Positions 2,112 through 18,601 of a stretch of DNA of 21,847 bases are shown piece by piece (positions within the stretch are counted from its first letter, which is position 1; every line of letters starts with the position of its first letter). The notes beneath the pieces are model-generated. The model was not told the origin of the DNA. It worked only from the letters and a program-made list of their open reading frames with translations, and ran no database searches. The translations under genes and the position numbers were made by a program. Location of the stretch: NCBI GenBank assembly GCA_023489425.1, contig JAMDCG010000093.1, positions 1 to 21,847 of the forward strand, written 5' to 3'. The stretch is from Thermoplasmatota archaeon. GTDB lineage: Archaea; Thermoplasmatota; Thermoplasmata; Thermoplasmatales; Thermoplasmataceae.

Positions 2112-3038
2112 ATGGAAAATGAAAATCGTATGGATAAGAACAAATCTAAAGGCAGTAACGTAACTAAAGAAGACTTTCTTTCGAGACGAAATGTTTTCAA
2201 GAGGTCAGCAAAAAGGAATATATTCTATCTTATTTTTGCCATCCCCGCATTAGCTTATGTAATAGGTTTGGCAATAATTCCAGCCATAACTGTGGTCTAC
2301 GATAGTTTTATAGGAAAGCACGGTTTTACCATAGCAAATTATTTAGCCTTGCCCAGTTATGGACTATATGGTGCTATAATTAATACTTTGCTTGTTAGCG
2401 TAGGGGCTCTTATGATTCAGCTTTTTATAGCGCTGGCAATTGCAATGGTACTGATAAAGCCATTCAAAGGTAAGAAAGCGTTTTCTACACTAGTTATTAT
2501 TCCACTAGGTATATCCACTGTAGTCAGTGCCTTTGTGTTTTCTATAATATTTCAGGCTGTTGGGGGATATGCAAACTCGGCTCTTGTTTCAATCGGATTA
2601 AAACCTGTGGACTGGTTTAATACAAACAGTTCTTCACTTGGTGTTGTAATGTTTTCTGATTTCTGGAAGAATACACCTCTGGTTGCATTAATTCTTTACG
2701 GAGGTTTGTCGTCTTTACCTCCTACATTATATGAGGCAGCATCAGTGGATGGGGCTGGTGCAGTTAGTCGATTTATACACATTACCCTCCCAAACATTGC
2801 ACCAATAATGTCAATTGCACTTCTCGTTAGGGGTGTAAGTGAATTTAATATTTTCGCATTGCCGCTGGTAATTATAGGGTATCATCCACTTATAATGAAT
2901 ACCCTAATCTTCGAAAATTACTCTTCGCTTCAGACAAGGAATATTTCTTACGCGGCAGCAACGATTCTACTTGCTATCATAATGGTGTATTCTGTCATAG
3001 TGGTAAGACTTGGAGGTGCAAAAGATCATGTCAGATGA
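2112..3038 (+). CDS. Carbohydrate ABC transporter permease, MalF/UgpA type
   Basis: One of the two membrane subunits of a carbohydrate-uptake ABC importer. The 308-residue product has a polar N-terminal tail of about 35 residues and six predicted membrane segments. The conserved cytoplasmic EAA loop is at about 208-228 (EAASVDGAGAVSRFIHITLP), which docks onto the ATPase. Length and motif fit the CUT1-family inner-membrane component. It is the first gene of a three-gene operon: its stop overlaps the next start by 11 bp. The ATG at 2112 follows AT-rich DNA without an evident ribosome-binding site. The substrate is probably a mono- or oligosaccharide, given the nearby GH15 enzyme, but that is inference. 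Confidence 0.9.
   Translation: MENENRMDKNKSKGSNVTKEDFLSRRNVFKRSAKRNIFYLIFAIPALAYVIGLAIIPAITVVYDSFIGKHGFTIANYLALPSYGLYGAIINTLLVSVGALMIQLFIALAIAMVLIKPFKGKKAFSTLVIIPLGISTVVSAFVFSIIFQAVGGYANSALVSIGLKPVDWFNTNSSSLGVVMFSDFWKNTPLVALILYGGLSSLPPTLYEAASVDGAGAVSRFIHITLPNIAPIMSIALLVRGVSEFNIFALPLVIIGYHPLIMNTLIFENYSSLQTRNISYAAATILLAIIMVYSVIVVRLGGAKDHVR
3012..3018 (+). promoter_or_regulatory. Shine-Dalgarno site fixing the second permease start
   Basis: GGAGGTG lies 9 nt before the ATG at 3028, inside the 3' end of the upstream permease gene. It supports that ATG over the in-frame TTG at 3010, which would sit on the site itself. Confidence 0.75.
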
Positions 3039-3855
3039 GAAGGGAAAATGGACAACGTATATTGCAGTAATTATCCTTGCAATAGTTTTCATATATCCAC
3101 TATGGATACTAATAATTTATGCCTTCCAACCAGCTTATTTAACCTTTGAAAAGATATACCCTGGGCAGATCCCACTTGCTTTCACACTGGGTAATCTTTT
3201 TGAGTCATTCAAGGAAGTTGATTTAATAGGTCCATTAACAAGAAGTCTGGAAGTAGCATTCATGGTTGGTCTTATTGCAATTGGTCTTGGAATACCAGCA
3301 GGTTATGGTCTTTCTAAGCTTACATCAAGTCTTTCAAACAAGCTAATTGTCTTCCTGTTCATAATCAATATGATGCCAGGGCTGGTCATTGCTATACCAA
3401 TATCAGTTTATTTTCTTAATGCGAATCTTGACAACACGGTGTTTGGCGTTGCATTTGCACAGGAACTGGTCGTATTGCCACTTTCAGTTTTTATCATGTT
3501 GAGCGGATTTAGAAGTTTACCACATGATCTGGAATATCAGGCAAGGGTGGACGGGGCTTCTTTTTCTTCCACATTTTTCAGACTTTTAATGCCAATGATA
3601 AGAGTACCAATTATGGTTGCATTTTTACTCGCATGGATGACATCATGGGATGAATTCACTTATGCTGTGATCATTGCCCCAATAGTGCCAACAGATTCTA
3701 CATTCCCTGTAACATTGTATAATTATGTGTCAAGGAACCTTCCACTGGAATCTGCAACATTTGCATTGGTAGCAACTATACCAGTCATAATATTAGCAGC
3801 TGTGCTTCAAAAGTACCTAAAAGGACAATATTTATCAGGAGGTTTAGTCGGATGA
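3028..3855 (+). CDS. Carbohydrate ABC transporter permease, MalG/UgpE type
   Basis: Second membrane subunit of the sugar importer. The 275-residue product has six predicted membrane helices. An EAA-like loop at about 169-190 (E-Y-Q-A-R-V-D-G-A followed by F-x-x-L-x-M-P) matches the ATPase-contacting loop of MalG-type proteins, with Q where the first Ala usually is. The start at 3028 is chosen because a strong GGAGGTG precedes it. It overlaps the upstream permease by 11 bp and the downstream ATPase by 4 bp (ATGA), so the three genes are translationally coupled. CUT1 permeases work as MalF/MalG heterodimers, and the upstream gene supplies the partner. Confidence 0.9.
   Translation: MSDEKGKWTTYIAVIILAIVFIYPLWILIIYAFQPAYLTFEKIYPGQIPLAFTLGNLFESFKEVDLIGPLTRSLEVAFMVGLIAIGLGIPAGYGLSKLTSSLSNKLIVFLFIINMMPGLVIAIPISVYFLNANLDNTVFGVAFAQELVVLPLSVFIMLSGFRSLPHDLEYQARVDGASFSSTFFRLLMPMIRVPIMVAFLLAWMTSWDEFTYAVIIAPIVPTDSTFPVTLYNYVSRNLPLESATFALVATIPVIILAAVLQKYLKGQYLSGGLVG
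3837..3843 (+). promoter_or_regulatory. Shine-Dalgarno site for the ABC ATPase
   Basis: AGGAGGT lies 8 nt before the ATG at 3852 and within the end of the upstream permease gene. Together with the ATGA overlap it confirms the ATPase start. Confidence 0.75.
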
Positions 3856-4874
3856 ACGTAAAAATGAGTTATGAAAATATTTATAAATTATATGGAAAGA
3901 AAAGGGTATTAAATAAGCTAAATCTAGAAATATATGACGGTGAGTTCTTAGTCGTACTCGGGCCATCAGGAATGGGGAAAAGTACTTTATTAAGAACAAC
4001 AGTAGGAATTGAAGAGTTGACTGCTGGAAAAATAATCCTTGATGGAAAGGACATAAGTAAATTACCTCCTAATAAGAGAAATATAGCAATGGTGTTTCAG
4101 AACTATGCTCTCTATCCTAACATGACAGTTTATCAAAACATTCAGTTTCCATTGAAAATGGCAAAATATGAAAAGAGTAAAATAAAAGGTAAAATAGAAT
4201 CAATTGCAGAAACTCTGAAGATTGGAGATGTCCTAGAAAGAAACATTAACCAGCTAAGTGGAGGACAAAAGCAGAGGGTTGCTCTGGCCAGGGCACTTGT
4301 AAGGGACCCAAAAATTTTTCTTCTTGATGAACCTCTAAGCAATCTTGATGCAAGAGTGAGATATACTGCGAGAGCCGAACTAAAGAAGATTCAAAAGGAA
4401 CTTGGTCACACCTTTGTTTATGTTACACATGATCAAACTGAGGCTTCTACACTTTCTGACAGGGTCGCCGTGTTGAGAGATGGGAAGATTGAGCAAATAG
4501 GCGTTTATGACGAGATCCTAAATGAACCAAAAAGTAAATGGCTTGGGGACTTTGTCGGAGAATATCCAATGAACTTCATAAGTGGAGATAGTATAAACAA
4601 TTCAGGTAAAATAATTGGATTCAGAGATCACTGGATAAGTGAGGGGGATGATCTAACTGGTACCGTAGAATGGTGCAATCAGGAGGAAGATAGTTTTCAC
4701 GTAAGCTGCAGGCTTGATAATAAAAATCTGGAAACTGATTCAGATGAAGAAGGTGGGCACCCAATAATATTAAAAACCAACAAAAGGTATGAGTTGGGAG
4801 CAAAGATAGGTTTCAGTCTCAAGAGATATAATATATACAATGAAGACGGATCACTGCTTCAAATAGTTAAGTAA
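3852..4874 (+). CDS. Sugar ABC transporter ATP-binding protein, MalK/UgpC family
   Basis: Cytoplasmic ATPase that powers the sugar importer encoded with it. All nucleotide-binding motifs are present: Walker A GPSGMGKST (37-45), Q-loop Gln83, signature LSGGQKQR (135-142), Walker B IFLLDEP (155-161) with D-loop SNLD, and the switch His193 in VTHDQTEA. After about residue 235 comes a C-terminal TOBE/regulatory domain, as in the 340-380-residue CUT1 ATPases; here it is short and acidic. It overlaps the permease upstream by ATGA. Such ATPases can be shared between several sugar transporters, so it may also serve other permeases in the genome. Confidence 0.94.
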   Translation: MNVKMSYENIYKLYGKKRVLNKLNLEIYDGEFLVVLGPSGMGKSTLLRTTVGIEELTAGKIILDGKDISKLPPNKRNIAMVFQNYALYPNMTVYQNIQFPLKMAKYEKSKIKGKIESIAETLKIGDVLERNINQLSGGQKQRVALARALVRDPKIFLLDEPLSNLDARVRYTARAELKKIQKELGHTFVYVTHDQTEASTLSDRVAVLRDGKIEQIGVYDEILNEPKSKWLGDFVGEYPMNFISGDSINNSGKIIGFRDHWISEGDDLTGTVEWCNQEEDSFHVSCRLDNKNLETDSDEEGGHPIILKTNKRYELGAKIGFSLKRYNIYNEDGSLLQIVK

Positions 4875-5325
4875 ATACAAATTAAATCTTCGTTCCATTC
4901 TAAAGTTACATATTTTCATTTGAGAAACTGTACTTTGATTGATTTTAGATTTACCTCAGTCTTACGTGTGATGATAATACACAATGGTTTCTATTAAAAC
5001 TATTATTAAACACCACCACGTGAAAATAGCGCTTTATGCGCACTATCACATAATTGATTGAACAAGATAAAGGAAAAATAAGATCAGCAACCTTCCCGAT
5101 GAATGTCCCCATACTTTGTTTCATTTTAAACCTTTAAAATTTAATGTTTTACTCCAAATCCTGTCTTCAGGTTTAAGATACTTATTTAATAGAAACAAAG
5201 ACCAGAGAACAGTTATCGCAAAAACCTAATAGAGTTTGAGATAATATAATTTCAATTTTCTTTATACTTGCAAAAGTTTGATTGTTTTATCATTTAAAAA
5301 AATAAATATTTGGTAGTTTAAAAAC
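4875..5325. other. 451-bp intergenic region between convergent genes
   Basis: It lies between the 3' ends of the ABC ATPase (+) and the binding protein (-). I find only very short open frames and no RNA gene. It holds a small imperfect hairpin GCGC-TTTAT-GCGC flanked by ATAG/CTAT (5026-5045) and a weak TGTG-N9-CACA element (4967-4983). Just beyond the binding-protein stop, the minus strand reads a T-rich stretch (complement of about 5295-5310), as expected for an archaeal terminator. No function is assigned to the rest. Confidence 0.45.
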
Positions 5326-6741
5326 TTACTGCCCTTCTATTGGCGCGTATGTACCATTTTCATACTGGTCTGCAACGTTTTGATTGTAATTAGTCGCCAG
5401 GAAGCTTTTTAAAGCGCTGTTTTGACTAGCAAGTATTGATGGTATACTAGAATATGATGAGTGGTCGACTACAATACTTGTCCATGCTTTGTCCATTAAA
5501 GTTTGCCATTCTCCAATCCATGAAACTGGTGATCTAAGGAACACTCCACCGTTAATTGCTGCTAGCGATTCATTGGTTACAGTGTCTGTTGAGTTATAGG
5601 ATTTCATTCCAAGTTTTGTAAGGTTGACAGAACCTGGCCACTGATAGTACATCATTGAGTAAGTGTTAGATGCAAGTCCGGTATAGGTTGCCCAGTATGA
5701 TGTTTTGTAATCTGGTGAAAAGTATGCACTCAGGTTATATATGTATTCCATAGCATGAATATCCCCAGTATCATTGAACATCATTGGGTTTCCACCGAAT
5801 TGAACCATCCACTGATAAAGTTCTGTGGGTGTGCTTGCTCCTCCATGTCCCTGCATGTTAATTTCTCCAACACCATATTTCTTATCAAGGATCTTTGCAT
5901 CAGTATAGAGTTGTGTATATGTTGTGGGTACCTTGGTGATTCCTGCACCCTGAAGTGCTGTATAATCAACCCATACAAGAGGTATATTGACAAGCTGTGT
6001 CAGGAAGTATACTCCTCCGAACTCTGATACTTCGTAGTTGTTAAGATTTGAAATTGAACTTATAACTCCTTCTCCGGCAGTAATCTTTGCGGCATTGATT
6101 GATGCTAGATAGCCATCATAAAAGAGAACTCCAACATCAAGATTATCAATAGTCATAACAACATTTGCGTGAGAATTTCCAGTTACAAGTGATGAAATCT
6201 CCTCAACCATGGATGCAGCGGTTATGAAACTAACACTCACTTGGATGTTTGGGTATGCCTTCTCAAAATTGTTTATAACCCCAGTAACATAGGACTCATC
6301 CGCTGTGCTTATACTCGTGTAATATGTAACAGTCGCTGTCGCATTGCTTGAAGCGTATATTGATGGTACTGTTGTACTTGGTGAAGACGTATATGCTCCC
6401 TGATCAACAGGTATAAATCCAGTATGGGCTTCACAGGCCTTCTGGATCGCAGGGTTCATCAGATAAGCCATTAACTGCGCTGACGCAGCTGGAGTCGATC
6501 CTCCCTTCATTTCAGCTATTACACAACCTCCAAGCAGATGCTCAGAATTGACCGGGCCACTCACACCAGTATAGACATATAACACATTGTTAGACGTGGT
6601 TGGAGTGGGCGTTGTTGTTTTCACTAGATTTTTGTAATCTAGTCCAACAAACGACCCTACAATAACTATCACCACAACAATTGCTATTATGGCTATCAGT
6701 TTATTTCCTTTTTTTTCTTTTGGTTCTATAGGATTATCCAT
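5326..6741 (-). CDS. Membrane-anchored ABC solute-binding protein with rearranged segment order
   Basis: A surface protein that should capture a sugar for an ABC importer. Residues 1-14 are charged, 15-34 form a single membrane anchor, and a Thr/Pro-rich linker (42-50) follows. Residues 135-390 look like the first part of a SBP_bac_1/MalE-type protein: strand VTYYTS, an NNFEKAYPNIQV helix-strand, and MMYYQWPGSV near 363-372. Residues about 396-465 resemble the C-terminal helices. The piece normally between those two blocks (PG..G...lGG..i...k...AA..l..yl..p..Q......G.iP) instead seems to lie at 52-125, before them. At least seven N-x-S/T sequons fit an exported glycoprotein. It is monocistronic or follows the GH15 gene by 102 bp, and converges on the ABC operon, its likely partner. 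Confidence 0.82.
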   Translation of the reverse strand: MDNPIEPKEKKGNKLIAIIAIVVVIVIVGSFVGLDYKNLVKTTTPTPTTSNNVLYVYTGVSGPVNSEHLLGGCVIAEMKGGSTPAASAQLMAYLMNPAIQKACEAHTGFIPVDQGAYTSSPSTTVPSIYASSNATATVTYYTSISTADESYVTGVINNFEKAYPNIQVSVSFITAASMVEEISSLVTGNSHANVVMTIDNLDVGVLFYDGYLASINAAKITAGEGVISSISNLNNYEVSEFGGVYFLTQLVNIPLVWVDYTALQGAGITKVPTTYTQLYTDAKILDKKYGVGEINMQGHGGASTPTELYQWMVQFGGNPMMFNDTGDIHAMEYIYNLSAYFSPDYKTSYWATYTGLASNTYSMMYYQWPGSVNLTKLGMKSYNSTDTVTNESLAAINGGVFLRSPVSWIGEWQTLMDKAWTSIVVDHSSYSSIPSILASQNSALKSFLATNYNQNVADQYENGTYAPIEGQ

Positions 6742-6770
6742 TTTTAATCTTTACTCCATCTAAATCATTT

Positions 6771-6782
6771 TATTTAAATTTA
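6771..6782 (-). promoter_or_regulatory. TATA-box candidate for the binding-protein gene
   Basis: An AATTTAAATA-like element on the minus strand is centred about 35 nt before the ATG at 6741. It would give a leader of roughly 10 nt. The gene therefore probably has its own promoter, despite lying behind the GH15 gene. Confidence 0.4.
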
Positions 6783-6843
6783 AAAAATGCTTAAATACTA
6801 CAATTAGGAGAAGAAAATATATGTATTAATCTATAAATATTAT

Positions 6844-8703
6844 TTAATATAAAGTGAACTTTAACTCATGTTCGATTTTCCCGTAATTTTTGGAAACTCT
6901 ATTCAATCTTACTGCCGCTCTGACCATGCCAAGGTGACTCAACGCCTGTGGAAAATTGCCAAGCAATTCGCCTGTTTTTAAATCAATTTCTTCTGACATT
7001 AGACCAAGATGATTGGAATGTGAGACAATTTTGCCCAGAACTTCCCTCGCTTTTTTTACTTTTCCAGTTATTATAAGGTCTTCTACATACCAGTAGGATA
7101 AAAGAACAAACGCGTTATCATCTGAAACAAAATTGTCCTTGTCATTATACCTTTTGAAAAGGTACCCGTCCACCATTAGATCGGTCTCAATCTTCTTTAT
7201 CGTTCCAAGAATATATGGATGATCAGGTGGTAAGAATCCTAGAAGGGGCATTCTTAAAAGAGATGCATCAGTACTTTCAGAGCCATAGAACTGCATAAAG
7301 GAGTTATGCTTTTCACTATATGCGTTTTCCATTACATCCTTTTTTATTAGATCGGCCTGAAGTTTCCAGTCAGAAATTGGTGCTGAAAGCTCCAATCTTT
7401 TGGACATTTCAATACCTCTTTGAAACGCTGACCATGCAATAACTTTTGAATAAGTATAATTTAATGGTTCTGATCTGAATTCCCAGATGCTGGAATCTCC
7501 ATATTTCCATATCTCGGTTAACTTTGAAAGTATATTCCTCACAAAATCCCATAAGTATGTATTAATAGTTCCTTCATTCTTAGAGACATGGTATATGGCA
7601 TTTATGAGGCTACCATATTCGTCAATTTGTAACTGGCTCGCAGCCAGATTTCCTACCCTTACAGGAGATGATTTCCTATAACCTTCATAGTTGATAAGTT
7701 TCTCTTCAAGATTCTGGTATTCGTTTATTGTGTATATTGTCTTGAGGTGACCCTCCATTTTTACCCTTTCCATTACATCATAAAGAAACTTTACCGATTC
7801 ATTTTTATAACCAAGCATTGAAAGTGATTCTATAACATATGCCACATCTCTAACCCAGCAGAATCTGTAATCATAATTTCTGTCTCCGCCGATAGCCTCG
7901 GGTAAGCTTGTTGTAGGGGCAGCGACCATCAATCCAGTCGGTTCATATATCAAACCTTTTAGAACCAGAGCAGATCTCACTACTTCATGATTGTATATAA
8001 GTGGAAAATTTCCTTCAGATACCCACTCCTTCTGAAATTTTGCGGTTTGCTCCATTAGATCAAATGACTTAAAATCGCTTGTTTTTTGTACATGCTGCAT
8101 ACCATAAAAAACAATGATCCATCCACTCCCATTCTTATTCGTTTTAAAATTTGCAGCAATCTTGTTACCATATACCTTGAAGTTAAAATCTGAAGATACC
8201 CCAACATATTCATCCTTGTATTTGAATATATATCCGTTTTTGTGTTTAACCACGTCTTCAGGTAAATTACCGAAGTGGAACGAGAGTTTTATCTCAGAAC
8301 GAATTTCCACACCTTCAACAGGGGTTTCGACATATCTATGAATCTCCGGGAAATTAATCGTACTGTATTTTGAGGTTGGAATGAAATCTGTAACTCTTAG
8401 TATTACCTGATTTTTTTTCTTAAATTCTGTTACAAGTATGTTTGTATTATCAATGTAATACTGGCTGGATTCAACATTCTGAAAATCAACAGGCTGAATT
8501 GAAAAACTGCCTCCTTTTTTACTGTCAAGGATCGAATCAAATATAGGGTCGGAGTTAAAATTCGGAAGACATGCCCAGTCAATTGTTCCATTCATTCCTA
8601 CCAGGGCAGAAGTTCTGTTGCTTGCAATTATTCCGTGGTGTGAAATTTTGAGATATTCCTCAGCATTTAGTTCAGAAAGTAAGATGGATCTGCGTGATGG
8701 CAT
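6844..8703 (-). CDS. Glycoside hydrolase family 15 (glucoamylase/trehalase-like)
   Basis: An inverting exo-alpha-glucosidase that releases glucose from non-reducing ends. It is probably cytoplasmic, since no signal peptide is seen. The start is set at the ATG at 8703 (619 residues); a TTG five codons upstream opens the same frame but would overlap the promoter region. The N-terminal beta domain holds the GH15 entry motif SNRTSALVGxNGTIDWACLP (about 28-47). The catalytic (alpha/alpha)6 barrel holds GDRNYDYRFCWVRD (273-286), QIDEYG (359-364), SSIWEFR (404-410) with the likely general acid Glu408, SEEID (570-574) with the likely base, and GNFPQALSHLG (582-592). Archaeal GH15 members include glucoamylases, glucodextranases and trehalases, and motifs alone do not separate them. 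The neighbouring sugar transporter suggests it handles an imported oligosaccharide. Confidence 0.92.
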   Translation of the reverse strand: MPSRRSILLSELNAEEYLKISHHGIIASNRTSALVGMNGTIDWACLPNFNSDPIFDSILDSKKGGSFSIQPVDFQNVESSQYYIDNTNILVTEFKKKNQVILRVTDFIPTSKYSTINFPEIHRYVETPVEGVEIRSEIKLSFHFGNLPEDVVKHKNGYIFKYKDEYVGVSSDFNFKVYGNKIAANFKTNKNGSGWIIVFYGMQHVQKTSDFKSFDLMEQTAKFQKEWVSEGNFPLIYNHEVVRSALVLKGLIYEPTGLMVAAPTTSLPEAIGGDRNYDYRFCWVRDVAYVIESLSMLGYKNESVKFLYDVMERVKMEGHLKTIYTINEYQNLEEKLINYEGYRKSSPVRVGNLAASQLQIDEYGSLINAIYHVSKNEGTINTYLWDFVRNILSKLTEIWKYGDSSIWEFRSEPLNYTYSKVIAWSAFQRGIEMSKRLELSAPISDWKLQADLIKKDVMENAYSEKHNSFMQFYGSESTDASLLRMPLLGFLPPDHPYILGTIKKIETDLMVDGYLFKRYNDKDNFVSDDNAFVLLSYWYVEDLIITGKVKKAREVLGKIVSHSNHLGLMSEEIDLKTGELLGNFPQALSHLGMVRAAVRLNRVSKNYGKIEHELKFTLY

Positions 8704-8721
8704 TAATGCCCAATACAATAA

Positions 8722-11959: not shown

Positions 11960-13126
11960 ATGAAAAACATTTATATTATTTCTGCAAAGAGAACGCCTCA
12001 CGGAAAATTTGGAAAATCTCTTTCAGGCATTAGTGCAACCAAACTTGGTGGGATAGCAATAAGAGGAGCACTGGAATCATCTCAAATAGATCAGGAATTG
12101 GTAGATGAGGTGATATTTGGAAATGTAATTCAGGCAGGAAATGGACAAAACCCAGCCGGTCAATGTAGTACACATGGTGGCATAAGATCGCAAGTTACGA
12201 AAAATACTGTTAATGTTGTATGTGCATCAGGGATGCTGGCAATGGAAAATGCATACAGGGAGATAGCTTTAGGAGAAAGAGATGTGGTTGTTGCAGGAGG
12301 TACAGAAAGTATGAGCAGAGGACCATACCTGCTATCGAGTAATTTCAGGTACGGTGTAAAAAACATGTTTTCTACACGGGAAACCCTAACAGATTCCATG
12401 TACAATGACGGTTTAATGGACGCATTTTACCAGAATTCAATGGGGTTTTACGCTGATAAAACTTCAAATAAATTTAATCAGACCAGGGATATGGTTGATG
12501 ACTATGCATTTCAGAGTTATACGAGAGCCATGAAAGCCACAAGAATGGGTTATTTCAAAGATGAAATTATCCCAATGGATGAATTAAATTTTGATGAGGG
12601 TATTAGGGAAACAAGCATAGAAACTCTTTCAAGGCTTAAGCCTTCCTTTAGCGACAATGGAATTCACACCGCGGGAAATTCATCGCAAATTTCTGATGGA
12701 GCATCGGCGCTGGTTTTAGCTTCAGAAAAAGCCGTAGACCAGTACGACCTCAAGCCCATTGGAAAGATAAATGGATTCTGGTCATCAAGTATGGACCCTA
12801 GGGATTATATTGAAGCACCCATAAAATCAACCAGGGAAATGCTTCAGAAATACAACTGGAATATAAACGAATTCGACCTTGTTGAGCACAATGAGGCATT
12901 TTCAGGAGGATGTATTCTTTTAAGGGATCAGCTGGGTATTGATAATGACAGATTCAATGTGAATGGAGGGGCTATCGCTTTTGGTCATCCTCTGGGGAGC
13001 AGTGGTTCCAGAATAGTGGTAACATTACTTCATGCCTTGCGACAGAGAAAAATGAATAAAGGTATTGCTACCTTATGTCATGGGGGAGGAGGAGGTCATT
13101 CTATGGCAATAGAGGTGGTTAATTGA
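11960..13126 (+). CDS. Thiolase (acetyl-CoA C-acyltransferase)
   Basis: Catalyses thiolytic cleavage of 3-ketoacyl-CoA or the reverse condensation of two acyl-CoAs. The 388-residue length is typical. Catalytic Cys88 lies in NVVCASGMLAME, NEAF is at 311-314, His343 in GGAIAFGHPLGSSGSR, and the second catalytic Cys373 in TLCHGGGGGHS. All four diagnostic motifs of degradative/biosynthetic thiolases are intact, unlike archaeal SCP2-type thiolases that pair with DUF35 proteins. It is the first gene of an operon whose next two genes encode the neighbouring beta-oxidation steps. Chain length and direction (oxidation or synthesis) are not decided by the sequence. Confidence 0.94.
   Translation: MKNIYIISAKRTPHGKFGKSLSGISATKLGGIAIRGALESSQIDQELVDEVIFGNVIQAGNGQNPAGQCSTHGGIRSQVTKNTVNVVCASGMLAMENAYREIALGERDVVVAGGTESMSRGPYLLSSNFRYGVKNMFSTRETLTDSMYNDGLMDAFYQNSMGFYADKTSNKFNQTRDMVDDYAFQSYTRAMKATRMGYFKDEIIPMDELNFDEGIRETSIETLSRLKPSFSDNGIHTAGNSSQISDGASALVLASEKAVDQYDLKPIGKINGFWSSSMDPRDYIEAPIKSTREMLQKYNWNINEFDLVEHNEAFSGGCILLRDQLGIDNDRFNVNGGAIAFGHPLGSSGSRIVVTLLHALRQRKMNKGIATLCHGGGGGHSMAIEVVN
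13111..13125 (+). promoter_or_regulatory. Ribosome-binding site with TTG start overlapping the thiolase stop
   Basis: AGAGGTGG (13111-13118) precedes a TTG at 13123 that overlaps the thiolase TGA (TTGA). No ATG exists before the Rossmann glycine motif, so this TTG is the start of the dehydrogenase and the two genes are translationally coupled. Confidence 0.75.
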
Positions 13127-13971
13127 AGTTTTCTGTTGTTGGTTCGGGAACCATGGGTCGTGGAATAGGACAAATTTTTGCACAAAGTGGCTACAATGTT
13201 GTTCAGGTAGATGTAAGCAAACAGGCTCTTGACAATGCAAGGGTTGCAATTATTGATTCACTGAATAAGCTTGAAAGGAAAGGATCACTTAAAGATACAC
13301 CCGATCGGATAATTTCAAGAATGGAATTCACGGATAATATGGATTCCATTAGTGAAAGTGACATGGTTATAGAAGCGGTGTTTGAGAGATTAGATATTAA
13401 GACTGAAACACTGAAAAGAATTGGAGCAACAGTTGGCAAAAATACAATTATAGGGTCAAACACCTCATCCATATCTATAAATTTACTATCGGCATATGTT
13501 GATAATCCTGAAAGATTCATGGGGATTCATTTTTTTAATCCAGTACCTGTTATGAAGTTAGTGGAACTTGTATCCGGTGAAAAAACTTCATCAGATTTGA
13601 TGAAGAAAGTGTATGAATTACTTGTAACAATTGGCAAGGATCCAGTAACGGTGAGAGATTTTCCAGGGTTTGTTTCAAACAGGGTACTGATGCCATTAAT
13701 AAGAGAAGCAATACTTGCTTTTGAAGAATCTGTTGCAAGTGCTTCGGATATAGATAAAACATTTAGACTTGGTATGAATCATCCAATGGGCCCACTGGAA
13801 CTGGCAGATTTCATAGGTCTGGATGTATGCCAGGATATCATGGAAGTGTTATATACCAACTACGGAGACCCAAGATTCAAACCACCCATCACCCTTAGAA
13901 ATCTGGTGAATTCAAAAAAGCTTGGCCGGAAGACTGGTGAGGGTTTTTATAAATATGAGGTAAAAAAATGA
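13123..13971 (+). CDS. 3-hydroxyacyl-CoA dehydrogenase (3-hydroxybutyryl-CoA type)
   Basis: NAD(P)-dependent oxidoreductase interconverting 3-hydroxyacyl-CoA and 3-ketoacyl-CoA. The N-terminal Rossmann fold has GSGTMGRG (7-14), with Asp30 at the end of the second strand suggesting NAD preference. The active-site region shows SNTSS (112-116), His136 in GIHFFNPVPVMKLVE, Glu148 and FPGFVSNR with Asn186. The C-terminal helical domain has PMGPLELADFIGLD and the terminal LGRKTGEGFYKY. It is 282 residues, a stand-alone single-domain form like bacterial Hbd/PaaH rather than a multifunctional fusion. It starts with TTG behind a good ribosome-binding site and overlaps the crotonase gene by ATGA. Confidence 0.93.
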   Translation: MKFSVVGSGTMGRGIGQIFAQSGYNVVQVDVSKQALDNARVAIIDSLNKLERKGSLKDTPDRIISRMEFTDNMDSISESDMVIEAVFERLDIKTETLKRIGATVGKNTIIGSNTSSISINLLSAYVDNPERFMGIHFFNPVPVMKLVELVSGEKTSSDLMKKVYELLVTIGKDPVTVRDFPGFVSNRVLMPLIREAILAFEESVASASDIDKTFRLGMNHPMGPLELADFIGLDVCQDIMEVLYTNYGDPRFKPPITLRNLVNSKKLGRKTGEGFYKYEVKK

Positions 13972-14729
13972 AAAATATAATGGTTGAAAAGGAAGGAAGA
14001 TTGCTGAAAATATTCATAAATAGAGAAAAGAAATTAAATCCACTTGATATTGAAACAATAGAAGAGATTGGAGAAGCCCTCAAAGATGAAAAATATATAG
14101 GAATTATATCAGGGATGAATAAAGCCTTCAGCGCCGGTGCAGATATTAATGTTTTTTTGAACCTTGATCCTGTTACAGCTTTCGATTTTTCAAAACGTGG
14201 TCACCAGGTCATGGATTTCATAGAAGAAAGGCAAATGCCAGTTATAGCAGCAATACATGGGTTTGCTCTGGGAGGGGGATTTGAACTTGCGCTTGCATGC
14301 GATATAAGAATTGCTCATCCAGACACCTATTTCGGATTACCAGAAGTTACCCTGGGAATTATACCGGGATTTGGAGGAACTCAAAGACTCAGGAATCTTG
14401 TGGGCGATAACATGGCATTCCAACTTGCTTCGCTTGGAACAAAAGTTGATTCAAACAGGGCACTCAATCTTGGAATTATTAGTGAAATAAACGAGAAATA
14501 CATGGAAAGAGCCATTGAAATAGGCAAGCAGTATGAAGCGCTGCCATATGAGTCACTTGCATACATAAAGGAGCTTACAAGAGGTAAGAATAGAGATTTA
14601 TTTGACAGGGAAAAAGAATATTTCGGAAATATGTTCAAAACAGAAAATCAAAGAGAAGGTGCCAGGGCATTTATTGAAAAAAGGAAGGCAAATTTCAACA
14701 CAAAAATAAATAATAGCCTATTTGAATGA
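13968..14729 (+). CDS. Enoyl-CoA hydratase (crotonase)
   Basis: Adds water across the double bond of trans-2-enoyl-CoA. The 253-residue crotonase fold has both oxyanion-hole segments (AFSAGADI, 53-60; GFALGGG, 98-104) and both catalytic glutamates, Glu106 in GGFELALACD and Glu126 in LPEVTLGIIPGFGGTQRL, which favours true hydratase activity over an isomerase-only role. Its ATG overlaps the dehydrogenase stop (ATGA), with GAGGT 7 nt upstream. With the two preceding genes it forms a complete hydratase-dehydrogenase-thiolase set. No acyl-CoA ligase, acyl-CoA dehydrogenase or electron-transfer flavoprotein gene is adjacent. Its 3' end overlaps the convergent cysteine-synthase-like gene by 12 bp. 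Confidence 0.93.
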   Translation: MKNIMVEKEGRLLKIFINREKKLNPLDIETIEEIGEALKDEKYIGIISGMNKAFSAGADINVFLNLDPVTAFDFSKRGHQVMDFIEERQMPVIAAIHGFALGGGFELALACDIRIAHPDTYFGLPEVTLGIIPGFGGTQRLRNLVGDNMAFQLASLGTKVDSNRALNLGIISEINEKYMERAIEIGKQYEALPYESLAYIKELTRGKNRDLFDREKEYFGNMFKTENQREGARAFIEKRKANFNTKINNSLFE

Positions 14730-15815: not shown

Positions 15816-16895
15816 TTGTCTGACTACAACAAAGAGATAGCTGAAGGGTTTGAATTATTAACCCAGGGAGAATTCGAGAAAAGCCTTGAAAAATTCATTA
15901 CAGCCATAGAGATTGATTCAACCAGGCCTGATGCCTTTTCACTGGCTTCAGAGGCATTTGCGCAAATTGGCGATATTGAGAATGCAAAATCTCACGCTGA
16001 GCAAGCGTATAAAATGGACTCTGGAAAACCAGAATACGTGCTTCAGTATGCCTCCATGCTTTATGCAACAGGTGATAGCGAGGAGAGCTTAAAACTCGCA
16101 AACGAGGCCCAGAAGAAGGGTGAAATGCCTGAGATACATCTTTTGAAAAGCAATATCTATATGGATATGGAGGAAGCCCAGAAAGCTTTAAAGGAAGCTA
16201 AAATAGCATTTGAAATGGATAAGAACCCCATATACAGGACAAATTATGCCATAGTTCTCAAGGAAAGCGGCAAGATAAAGGAATCGACTGAAATTCTTAC
16301 TAAGATGATACAGGAAAAACCAGATGATCTGGATGCGCTTTACTTACTCTTCCAGAATGAACTGGCAGAAGAGCATCTAGATGAAGCAATGAACTATATT
16401 ACAAAATGTATATCACTTAATGACTCTGAGCCCCTGTTCTATTCAGAACTTGCTTCAATGATGGAAGATTTCGAAGATAATGAAAAGGCTGAAAAATATT
16501 ATAAAAAGGCATTGGAGGTCTCCGACAATGATCCAGAGATGGCAATGCAACTTGCAGAATTTTATCAGTCCATGGATAAATTTCAGGAGGGAATTGATGT
16601 TCTGGAGGGGGCACATAGCGATGAAGATCCAGAGTATTTTTTAATGATGGGAAAACTTCTCCTTGGAAAGAAGGAATACAACAAGGCCTTATCTCATCTG
16701 GACATAGTAATTGAAATGGCAGATGACCCAGAGGCTAAAATTGTAAAAGGGACCTGCTTGATGGAAATAAACAGGTTAAATGATGCTCAATCCATTCTGA
16801 AGGAGGCACTAAAGCAAGATTTTCAAACCGAATATGTTGAGTCTTTGTTAAATCAGATCTGGTGGAAGGAGAATAGCAAGAAATTCAAACTATAA
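15816..16895 (+). CDS. Tetratricopeptide-repeat protein
   Basis: A soluble, acidic 359-residue protein made almost entirely of about nine to ten TPR-like 34-residue helix pairs, seen as repeating A/G/Y patterns such as GEFEKSLEKFITAIEID (about 17-33), NEKAEKYYKKALEVS and KEYNKALSHLDIVIEM. TPR arrays are protein-binding scaffolds; no catalytic domain, signal peptide or membrane segment is present. The start is a TTG at 15816: no ATG exists between the upstream in-frame stop and the second repeat. It is divergent from the cysteine-synthase-like gene, and its 3' end overlaps that of the Rieske gene by 11 bp. A specific partner cannot be inferred. Confidence 0.85.
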   Translation: MSDYNKEIAEGFELLTQGEFEKSLEKFITAIEIDSTRPDAFSLASEAFAQIGDIENAKSHAEQAYKMDSGKPEYVLQYASMLYATGDSEESLKLANEAQKKGEMPEIHLLKSNIYMDMEEAQKALKEAKIAFEMDKNPIYRTNYAIVLKESGKIKESTEILTKMIQEKPDDLDALYLLFQNELAEEHLDEAMNYITKCISLNDSEPLFYSELASMMEDFEDNEKAEKYYKKALEVSDNDPEMAMQLAEFYQSMDKFQEGIDVLEGAHSDEDPEYFLMMGKLLLGKKEYNKALSHLDIVIEMADDPEAKIVKGTCLMEINRLNDAQSILKEALKQDFQTEYVESLLNQIWWKENSKKFKL

Positions 16896-17211
16896 TCTCC
16901 AGCTCTTCCCCATTTATTTTAACTTCGTATGTTTTCAGCTTTGAACAATTTGCATAGTCTCCCATTGTTTTAGGAATAGGATTTTCAAGAACATCTCCAT
17001 TATTTAGATTGAAAATGATATGATGGGAAGGACACATTATTCTATCATCAGAAAGGGTTCGACATAGAAACAAAGGCCCACCTTTATGAGGGCATTTTGA
17101 TTCAAACGCAAAGTATTTTCCATTCTGCTTTAGTATTGTAATATCTTCCCCGTCAAGTTGAACTCTTTTCCTGTCCTTGGAATCAAATCCATCATTATGT
17201 ACACTTATCAT
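16885..17211 (-). CDS. Rieske-type [2Fe-2S] ferredoxin-like protein
   Basis: A small soluble electron carrier of 108 residues. The cluster ligands are Cys40-x-His42 in CPHKGG and Cys60-x2-His63 in CPSHH, with normal spacing for soluble Rieske ferredoxins or nitrite-reductase small-subunit-like proteins; there is no membrane anchor. The frame remains open 34 codons further upstream from a GTG, but that would overlap the thioredoxin reductase gene. The ATG at 17211, four bases after the reductase stop, fits an operon and the domain limits. As third gene behind thioredoxin and its reductase, a role in passing electrons to that flavoprotein is plausible, though not shown. Its 3' end overlaps the TPR gene. 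Confidence 0.88.
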   Translation of the reverse strand: MISVHNDGFDSKDRKRVQLDGEDITILKQNGKYFAFESKCPHKGGPLFLCRTLSDDRIMCPSHHIIFNLNNGDVLENPIPKTMGDYANCSKLKTYEVKINGEELEIIV

Positions 17212-17215
17212 ACTT

Positions 17216-18190
17216 TTAGAGAGAGATTTTTGATTTCTTATTAAGATCAACGAACTTCCAGTCACTTCTGACGGATCCCATTCCCCGTTTCTTGTGAACG
17301 TAGTTAATTGCACTTAAAGCAGCTACAGAACCCTGTCCTGCTGATATGACTGCCTGTTTATAGGGGATATTTGTCACATCTCCTGCAGCAAACACTCCCT
17401 CCCTACTTGTTTTTCCGTTCATGTCTATAATGACTTCATTTTCTTTGTTCATTTCCACAAATCCCTTCAGCATTCCTGTTTTGGCGATATATCCCATTTC
17501 AACAAAAACTGCCTTCACCGGGATCTGTTCAACAGAACCATCTTTTTTCTTTAATGACACTGCATTCACGGTCTTATCTCCAAGTATTTCATCCACTTCA
17601 GATTCATAAAGGAATTTTACGTTTTCCAGCGATCTTGCCTCTGCGATCATGTCCTCTGAACCTGAAATACGATTTGCCTTCTGAGTTACATAAACCTTTG
17701 AAGCTACAGTCCCAAGATATAGGGCTGCCTGCAGTGCGTGATCTCCTGCTCCAGCAACGAGAACATCCTTGTTTTTATACAGTGGCCCATCGCAGATAGA
17801 GCAGTAGGAAACACCTCTTCCCTTATATTTCTCCTCTCCTTTACTACCAAGATCCCTCGGAGTTTTACCAAAGGCAAGTATGAGTGCATCGCATTCATAC
17901 TGCTCTTCTACACCTTTCAAGATGAACTGATTATCAGACTCAGTAACAGTTCTAATTTCATCATATGAAAATTCCGTACCGTACATCTGAGCCTGTGCCT
18001 GAAATTTAGAAGCTAAATCAAATCCTGAAATGCTCTCAAAACCCGGATAATTTTGGATGTCAGTTGTAAGCAAACCCTGCCCCCCTATATCCTTTGTAAC
18101 CACAAGTGTCTTCATCCCCTGCCTTGATGAATATATGGCAGCGGATAACCCAGCAAAGGCACCACCTATTACAATAATATCGTATTTCAT
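17216..18190 (-). CDS. trxB: Thioredoxin reductase-like flavoprotein
   Basis: A low-molecular-weight FAD disulfide reductase of 324 residues that should reduce the co-encoded thioredoxin. The FAD site is VIGGAFAGLSAA (7-18) and GVFAAGDVT (265-273), and the redox pair is Cys130-x2-Cys133 in CSICDGP. The central pyridine-nucleotide domain is degenerate: the Rossmann motif reads AGAGDHALQAA (146-156), and the usual HRRxxxR for the NADPH 2'-phosphate is replaced by VTQKANR (168-174). The true reductant may therefore not be NADPH. From memory, a Thermoplasma acidophilum homologue was reported not to use NAD(P)H. The ATG directly follows the thioredoxin stop with no gap, and the Rieske gene follows four bases after its own stop. 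The C-terminal tail beyond residue 300 is basic. Confidence 0.92.
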   Translation of the reverse strand: MKYDIIVIGGAFAGLSAAIYSSRQGMKTLVVTKDIGGQGLLTTDIQNYPGFESISGFDLASKFQAQAQMYGTEFSYDEIRTVTESDNQFILKGVEEQYECDALILAFGKTPRDLGSKGEEKYKGRGVSYCSICDGPLYKNKDVLVAGAGDHALQAALYLGTVASKVYVTQKANRISGSEDMIAEARSLENVKFLYESEVDEILGDKTVNAVSLKKKDGSVEQIPVKAVFVEMGYIAKTGMLKGFVEMNKENEVIIDMNGKTSREGVFAAGDVTNIPYKQAVISAGQGSVAALSAINYVHKKRGMGSVRSDWKFVDLNKKSKISL

Positions 18191-18601
18191 TCAGTTCAAC
18201 AGCTTCTTGAGTTTAGCATCCAGCATTGTCTTTGGTACTGCACCTATGCTCACATCGGCTACCTTTCCGTTTTTGAACATTATCACAGTTGGAATACTGG
18301 TGATATTGAAGGACGAACTTACTTCAGGGTTTGCGTCCACATCAACCTTTCCAAAAGAGATTTTGCCACTGTACTCATTGGCCAGTTCTTCAACTATGGG
18401 AGAGAGAAATCTGCATGGAGCACACCAGGATGCCCAGAAGTCCACTACCATAATTTTATTTTTCTTAACCTCATCATTGAAAGTTGCATCTGTTAATTCT
18501 ACCGGTTTCATTACTTTTACCTCCTTTTTCTTATTCTCATCTTGAATTCTTGCCATTAACTTTTTCCTTATGTTTTCTAATTCCAAATCGTCTTCTGACA
18601 T
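18191..18601 (-). CDS. trxA: Thioredoxin with a charged N-terminal extension
   Basis: A protein-disulfide reductant of 136 residues. The thioredoxin fold (about 33-136) has the classical WCAPC active site (Cys60, Cys63) and the cis-Pro motif SIPT. About 30 extra N-terminal residues form a highly charged, probably helical segment (ELENIRKKLMARIQDENKKK) not found in the standard 105-residue thioredoxin. It is the first gene of the thioredoxin / reductase / Rieske operon, and its promoter region is shared with the divergent wHTH gene. A minus-strand TATA-like element (18619-18625) about 21 nt before the ATG suggests a leaderless transcript. Confidence 0.93.
   Translation of the reverse strand: MSEDDLELENIRKKLMARIQDENKKKEVKVMKPVELTDATFNDEVKKNKIMVVDFWASWCAPCRFLSPIVEELANEYSGKISFGKVDVDANPEVSSSFNITSIPTVIMFKNGKVADVSIGAVPKTMLDAKLKKLLN

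Follow-up and report, generated by a model that had tools for sequence, protein, structure and literature searches.

The window analysed here is a stretch of 21,847 nucleotides from a Thermoplasmatota archaeon of the Thermoplasmataceae (GenBank assembly GCA_023489425.1, contig JAMDCG010000093.1). Its gene at 5326-6741 on the minus strand encodes the N-terminally anchored solute-binding protein (SBP) of an ATP-binding cassette (ABC) importer, and the chain of this protein runs in the block order B-A-C where ordinary relatives have A-B-C. We read it as an anchored sugar-binding protein of the cluster D-I type in which one ancient event put the internal block B behind the membrane anchor, and give this reading a probability of about 85%. 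The three blocks are homologous to those of the ordinary relatives, their order is crossed, the crossed order is conserved, and the tree of A plus C agrees with that of B. The rearrangement is a transposition of adjacent blocks and not a circular permutation, since B-A-C is no rotation of A-B-C; an earlier sequence-only reading of the window had suspected a non-standard permutation other than a simple circular one, and in this it was right. The gene is laid out as follows.

5326-6741 (-): permuted (B-A-C) solute-binding protein, 471 amino acids plus stop codon.
6640-6702 (-): N-terminal membrane anchor helix, residues 14-34, a hydrophobic run with a helix at 14-34 in the predicted model.
6589-6639 (-): linker, residues 35-51, Thr/Pro/Ser-rich from residue 42 by sequence; model confidence is low at 41-48.
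6355-6588 (-): block B, residues 52-129, with its canonical site between A and C; it comprises the last strand of the first half of the C-lobe, hinge II and the greater part of the return segment of the N-lobe.
6532-6543 (-): equivalent of hinge II, residues 67-70, from profile mapping onto the boundaries of TdCIBP.
6337-6354 (-): new B-to-A junction, residues 130-135, modelled confidently (predicted local distance difference test, pLDDT, 93-95 over residues 121-140).
5611-6336 (-): block A, residues 136-377, first part of the N-lobe, hinge I and main part of the C-lobe.
5581-5610 (-): new A-to-C junction, residues 378-387.
5329-5580 (-): block C, residues 388-471, which begins with the final helix of the return segment and continues through hinge III into the tail helices of the C-lobe.

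For the block comparisons, five canonical homologues were cut into blocks to give one profile each for A, B and C, and P0001, the database copy of the window protein (2 of 471 residues different), was used as its stand-in. Against the canonical protein P0064, with 200 shuffles, block A is identical at 111 of 233 positions (48%, z 82), block B at 24 of 69 (35%, z 18.9) and block C at 41 of 75 (55%, z 43); in P0068, a DPANN member, block B reaches 35 of 69. Permuted and canonical proteins are 42-55% identical over the main block (A) among the pairs compared. In canonical proteins A stops before the strand L-G-V-Y-P-G-P, B continues to about S-T-I-Y and C opens with the next helix; the cuts in the permuted proteins shown match these to within a few residues, so that the breakpoints are clean. 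The sequence-only reading had placed a canonical late segment at about residues 52-125, behind anchor and linker, followed by the normal start at about 137 and by the normal last helices at the end. Block identities and crossed profiles bear this out with B extended to about residue 129; the order stands, A is now seen to start at about 136, and the final helix of the canonical return segment (window residues 388-398) proves to have remained with block C.

The block swap accounts for the truncated family-model matches of these genes. SBP_bac_1 (PF01547) scores 34.7 bits in the window protein (Pfam cut-off 26), in a match that is not end-to-end and lays model positions 4-223 of 307 on residues 146-355. 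The same model is followed to position 306-307 in the four canonical proteins scanned (P0064, P0062, P0132 and P0100) and ends at 199-237 in the permuted P0068, P0040, P0042 and P0026. For SBP_bac_8 the best stretch is the model end, which falls near the start of the protein: on residues 17-89 in the permuted P0040 (model positions 200-267) and on 33-104 in the permuted P0042 (202-263).

Comparison with solved structures gives the same picture. A phmmer search of the Protein Data Bank with the window protein returned weak matches, of residues 63-147 to 9lff 316-397 (E-value 9e-5 for the whole sequence, 0.13 for the stretch) and of residues 131-325 to 3zkk 15-205 (E 0.004). A profile of 61 permuted relatives aligned crossed on 9xf5, with positions 115-295 on 35-211 (E 1.6e-9) and 59-126 on 310-376 (E 0.056), and crossed on 1eu8, with 143-286 on 13-157 (E 2e-6) and 63-154 on 286-384 (E 2, alone not significant); its top stretch on 9lff was 65-120 on 318-375. 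The profile of 49 canonical relatives matched 9xf5 and 1eu8 each in a single run. A colinear alignment with ordinary binding proteins, which by its own terms would have refuted the sequence-only reading, was thus not found.

The list of homologues comprises 222 proteins, from the best 120 of 122 in a first search, all 78 of a second and the best 120 of 219 in a third; the second and third scored the 7996 candidates sharing most words, with lengths of 0.55-1.75 times the query. Homologues with the same order, which the sequence-only reading had wanted sought, are plentiful: 64 of the 222 are B-A-C, 153 are A-B-C, two distant ones have A-B and three are fragments (62, 55 and 3 for B-A-C, A-B-C and fragments among the best 120 of the first search). 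The second copy of B for which that reading had also provided is absent, as no listed protein has two B hits and none is a B-A-B-C duplication intermediate. The permuted order is found in proteins of Picrophilus oshimae, Oxyplasma meridianum and Thermogymnomonas acidicola.

Among 34 loci from a collection with one genome per species, 28 are B-A-C and one (L034) is A-B-C; three lie at a contig end and have A-C alone (L013, L022 and L027), L033 has only B-A in an open frame, and L032 has no block in an open frame of at least 200 residues. The loci are titled Thermoplasmata and relatives, with L024, L025, L026, L028 and L029 labelled Nanoarchaeota or Parvarchaeota; P0122 is named ARMAN-5. L033 belongs to Thermogymnomonas acidicola and carries only B and part of A in one open frame, though a B-A-C protein of 451 amino acids (P0040) is listed for the species.

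At an E-value of 0.001, some match was found in 59 of 117 Thermoplasmatales genomes. A colinear permuted match spanning at least profile positions 9-452 occurs in 26, all in the window's family; six more hold only pieces (G055, G064, G071, G095, G096 and G107), and 20 hold a canonical relative, which the profile matches in three crossed pieces. Both orders occur together in G048 and in G078. The match in G096 (contig C8, 85795-87212) is broken over three open frames; sequencing error or decay may account for this and for the incomplete frame of L033. A sample of 292 genomes across the phylum gave 21 matches at E 1e-10, 10 of them permuted and all of these in the same family. The other three SBP_bac_1 genes of the window's genome match the model in the usual order, and viral contigs held no relatives.

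For phylogeny, the fragments P0027, P0047 and P0061 and the partial P0033 were dropped, and from the careful trees also P0171 and P0172, which have A-B only. In the careful A+C tree, of 37 among 216 proteins picked by identity clustering and rooted with an A-B-C outgroup, the B-A-C proteins form one clade with support 93/85, present in 92% of bootstrap trees. A quick A+C tree of 116 of the first 120 proteins agrees, with one change of order (SH-like approximate likelihood ratio test, SH-aLRT, 91), and an unrooted tree of block B, in which only this subfamily is represented, shows the same split (92/91). Judged by these sequences, the B-A-C order is that of a single clade in Thermoplasmatales and DPANN archaea and is derived from A-B-C. 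As the B tree repeats the split of the A+C tree, the front B probably came from this lineage itself, by a move or by replacement with a duplicate of B, and not from a far family.

AlphaFold models show the same 28 secondary-structure elements in permuted and canonical proteins, with the order swapped. Block B has the same five elements as the canonical segment, including a strand predicted at 71-78, and A plus C without B superpose on solved binding proteins over about 300 residues spanning the full chain range. The models predict that the two-lobed shape is kept despite the swap, with two alpha/beta lobes as in solved SBPs of cluster D-I (Type II). The sequence-only reading had asked whether the front segment might be a separate domain; the models do not predict B as an unrelated domain, in what is the least complete of its three tests. 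The chain order of TdCIBP is N-I, C-I, N-II, C-II with three hinge segments, and that of the permuted protein is the body of N-II, N-I, C-I, the last N-II helix and C-II. MsBP has the N-lobe sheet order 2-1-3-8-4, with a late strand inside. By the TdCIBP boundaries the hinge is crossed four times in the permuted protein against three in the canonical one. The division used for MalE assigns the final return-segment helix to the C-lobe, and by it there are two crossings. The idea that the swap makes both lobes contiguous with a single crossing was rejected by the mapping onto TdCIBP, because B opens with a C-lobe strand and the last return-segment helix stays with C. A Foldseek search with the permuted model gave TM scores of 0.26-0.50 by query length and root-mean-square deviations of 7-18 Å over the 50 matches listed; we take these low values as failure on the swap by an aligner that keeps chain order, and they lend the swap no independent support.

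The binding-protein gene lies beside two permeases and an ATPase of an ABC importer (2112-4874) and downstream of a codirectional glycoside hydrolase family 15 (GH15) gene.

2112-3038 (+): ABC importer permease 1 (PF00528).
3010-3855 (+): ABC importer permease 2 (PF00528; GlcU-like, below cut-off).
3852-4874 (+): sugar-importer-type ATPase, UgpC/GlcV/MalK-like, under equivalog cut-offs.
6844-8718 (-): GH15 enzyme with TREH_N domain, trehalase (TreH1)-like (PF00723 and PF19291).

An ATPase and at least one permease stand beside the gene in 28 of the 34 loci, and 10 loci have a GH15 gene nearby. The most likely role of the protein is that of an ordinary Venus-flytrap receptor for a sugar, perhaps trehalose. 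Trehalose is the leading guess for the ligand because of the TreH1-like GH15 neighbour, the name 'trehalose transport system substrate-binding protein' given to several relatives at the Joint Genome Institute (JGI), and the characterised archaeal GH15 trehalases, which according to the accessible part of PMC10969515 come from Thermoplasma and Sulfolobus.

Transporter and binding-protein genes are convergent in the window (2112-4874 on the plus strand, 5326-6741 on the minus strand), codirectional in L014-L017, L024-L026, L028 and L029, and divergent in L019-L021, L023, L030 and L031. Nanoarchaeota and Parvarchaeota are known for reduced genomes, and the importer set there is unexpected; in all five loci so labelled the permuted gene is accompanied by both permeases and the ATPase, and four of the five have GH15-like genes. 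The GH15 gene of the window may be a divergent trehalase paired with the importer. An Rfam scan of the window gave nothing at gathering scores, and a scan of 4800-6900 for bacterial-type promoters and terminators found four promoter-like sites (shuffled mean 8.7) and no terminators (1.0). Read from their translations, two further sets of genes stand elsewhere in the window.

16885-18601 (-): Rieske-type ferredoxin-, thioredoxin reductase- and thioredoxin-like genes, head to tail.
11960-14729 (+): thiolase-, 3-hydroxyacyl-CoA dehydrogenase- and enoyl-CoA hydratase-like genes in succession, together a small set for fatty-acid oxidation.

Four other explanations were weighed. Many of the relatives come from metagenome bins, so a misjoined read or contig might have made the odd order, but we regard the chance of such an assembly or binning artefact as negligible. 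The genome of the window consists of one contig (1,938,699 bases, 99.34% complete); the same order occurs in 25 other genomes of the 117 searched, including G068, likewise a single contig, and is common to the three named species, so that independent genomes already refute it. The misassembly against which the sequence-only reading had advised a check is thereby excluded. That the front B was replaced and not moved, by a B-like piece from another binding-protein gene with loss of the original internal B, is unlikely, though the least so of the four. B is less conserved than A, and a different-gene origin has been proposed for the permuted part of TpMglB-2 (accessible portions of PMC4990184); a B taken from a second copy of the same gene would look no different from a moved one. 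Against an outside source, all 20 pairs compared within the subfamily show 33-55% identity between permuted and canonical B, over stretches of 47-72 residues, and the B tree, with only this subfamily in it, gives the same one-clade pattern.

Two independent permutations at the same place, in the Thermoplasmatales and DPANN lineages, are a still slimmer prospect. The clade support is 93/85, with 8% of bootstrap trees lacking the clade, and the six DPANN proteins retain the canonical GGD and PYR motifs; the breakpoints are nevertheless equal to within a few residues, both lineages have the YQWPG junction, and the B tree likewise has one clade at 92/91. We think it similarly improbable that the front B completes the N-lobe of a neighbouring molecule, so that the permuted protein would work on the membrane only as a dimer or oligomer. 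The new termini and the anchor beside B make such swapping conceivable, but the B-A junction is only about six residues long and is modelled confidently within one chain.

Several observations count against the reading of a single event with the receptor otherwise unchanged. Support for the one clade is good and not maximal. B is the least conserved block and has the weakest correlation between the two orders (P0033, P0110-P0120, P0171, P0172 and fragments excluded from the conservation count), and the protein may form a swapped dimer or have its B placed loosely. By simple pattern counts, GGC stands in 50 of 58 Thermoplasmatales B-A-C proteins where canonical ones mostly have GGD, and P-x-R before the N-x-P-L motif is found in none of the 58. 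Each of the 63 B-A-C proteins whose motif can be read has YQWPG, and 138 of 153 A-B-C proteins have YQWPY. These divergent counts suggest that ligand or binding mode may have changed in B-A-C proteins. The window's GH15 enzyme scores 387.7 bits on NF041084 (TreH1), below the cut-off of 820, and no GH15 neighbour was found in 24 of the 34 loci, several of them short. By the same pattern counts all six DPANN members keep the canonical GGD and PYR, so the swap probably preceded the near-cleft changes and would not itself require them. The Tyr of YQWPY aligns with Trp290 of TdCIBP, one of that protein's three sugar-stacking residues; its position is altered to Gly in B-A-C proteins, and the end of A has therefore been remodelled.

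Under the single-event reading, B, carrying hinge II and the larger part of the return segment of the N-lobe, would have been shifted to directly behind the anchor and would still place its strand in the N-lobe sheet, leaving lobes, hinge and ligand cleft canonical. The chain would enter by the return strand, run through the usual first N-lobe strands, cross to the C-lobe and finish with the usual tail. The receptor would bind a sugar, perhaps trehalose or a related glucoside, close, and hand it to the neighbouring permeases. The likely route would be that A-B was duplicated in tandem and that the first A and the second B were then lost, with direct intragenic transposition as the alternative; no intermediate of duplication and loss is among the 222 listed homologues. 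More tentatively, and on balance doubtfully, the proteins might be the first recognised topological subclass of cluster D, in which a single ancient non-circular transposition put the N-lobe return strand first and most of the N-lobe into one stretch; the tether would then enter beside hinge II and the C-lobe instead of at the first N-lobe strand, and an effect of the re-sited tether on docking to the transporter might be why the form became fixed in Thermoplasmatales and in DPANN archaea from similar habitats.

To our knowledge, non-circular natural permutations are rarely documented. Here the rearranged and the original order coexist, in two cases within one genome, and because both survive at 42-55% main-block identity they offer a direct test of how strongly folding, hinge motion and docking depend on chain order in a common receptor fold. 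This sugar-binding protein of acid-loving archaea is a natural experiment in protein rewiring and a naturally evolved template for rewired binding-protein sensors, in which engineered circular permutation is already in use (PMC3454389, in the part available).

Among known systems, canonical sugar SBPs such as those of Sulfolobales HS-7 (P0064), Saccharolobus shibatae (P0132) and Cuniculiplasma (P0100) are homologous in all three blocks and have an N-terminal anchor by sequence; they differ in the order A-B-C, in YQWPY in most, and in P-x-R in most readable ones. TdCIBP (9xf5), classed as cluster D-I, and the trehalose/maltose-binding protein of Thermococcus litoralis (1eu8) are the top solved relatives by profile, with the same lobes and hinges by mapping, but the permuted profile matches both only as crossed stretches. 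Among the open-licence papers listed by searches aimed at permutation in binding proteins or at non-circular permutation, none was seen to describe a permuted SBP of cluster D or of archaea, and the accessible parts of PMC8306680 and PMC3454389 describe none. The major capsid protein of BPP-1 (HK97 fold) is, from the available part of PMC3863775, likewise a non-circular swap of elements with the fold kept, in an unrelated fold and function. The nearest precedent is TpMglB-2 of Treponema pallidum (Type Ic, Cluster Bc), which the accessible portions of PMC4990184 present as a Type I SBP that is circularly permuted and has a fourth crossing; its authors raise tethering as a possible driver of permutation. 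TpMglB-2 shares with the present family a natural rearrangement in a tethered SBP, a bilobed fold that is kept and an extra hinge crossing. The family does not belong to Type Ic, since B-A-C is not a rotation and its relatives are SBP_bac_1 proteins. Where TpMglB-2 is a circular permutation in Type I (cluster B), the present proteins have an adjacent-block swap in a cluster D-type SBP with the C-terminus unchanged; what they add to that precedent is such a swap in the MalE-like class, together with a clean set of unpermuted close relatives.
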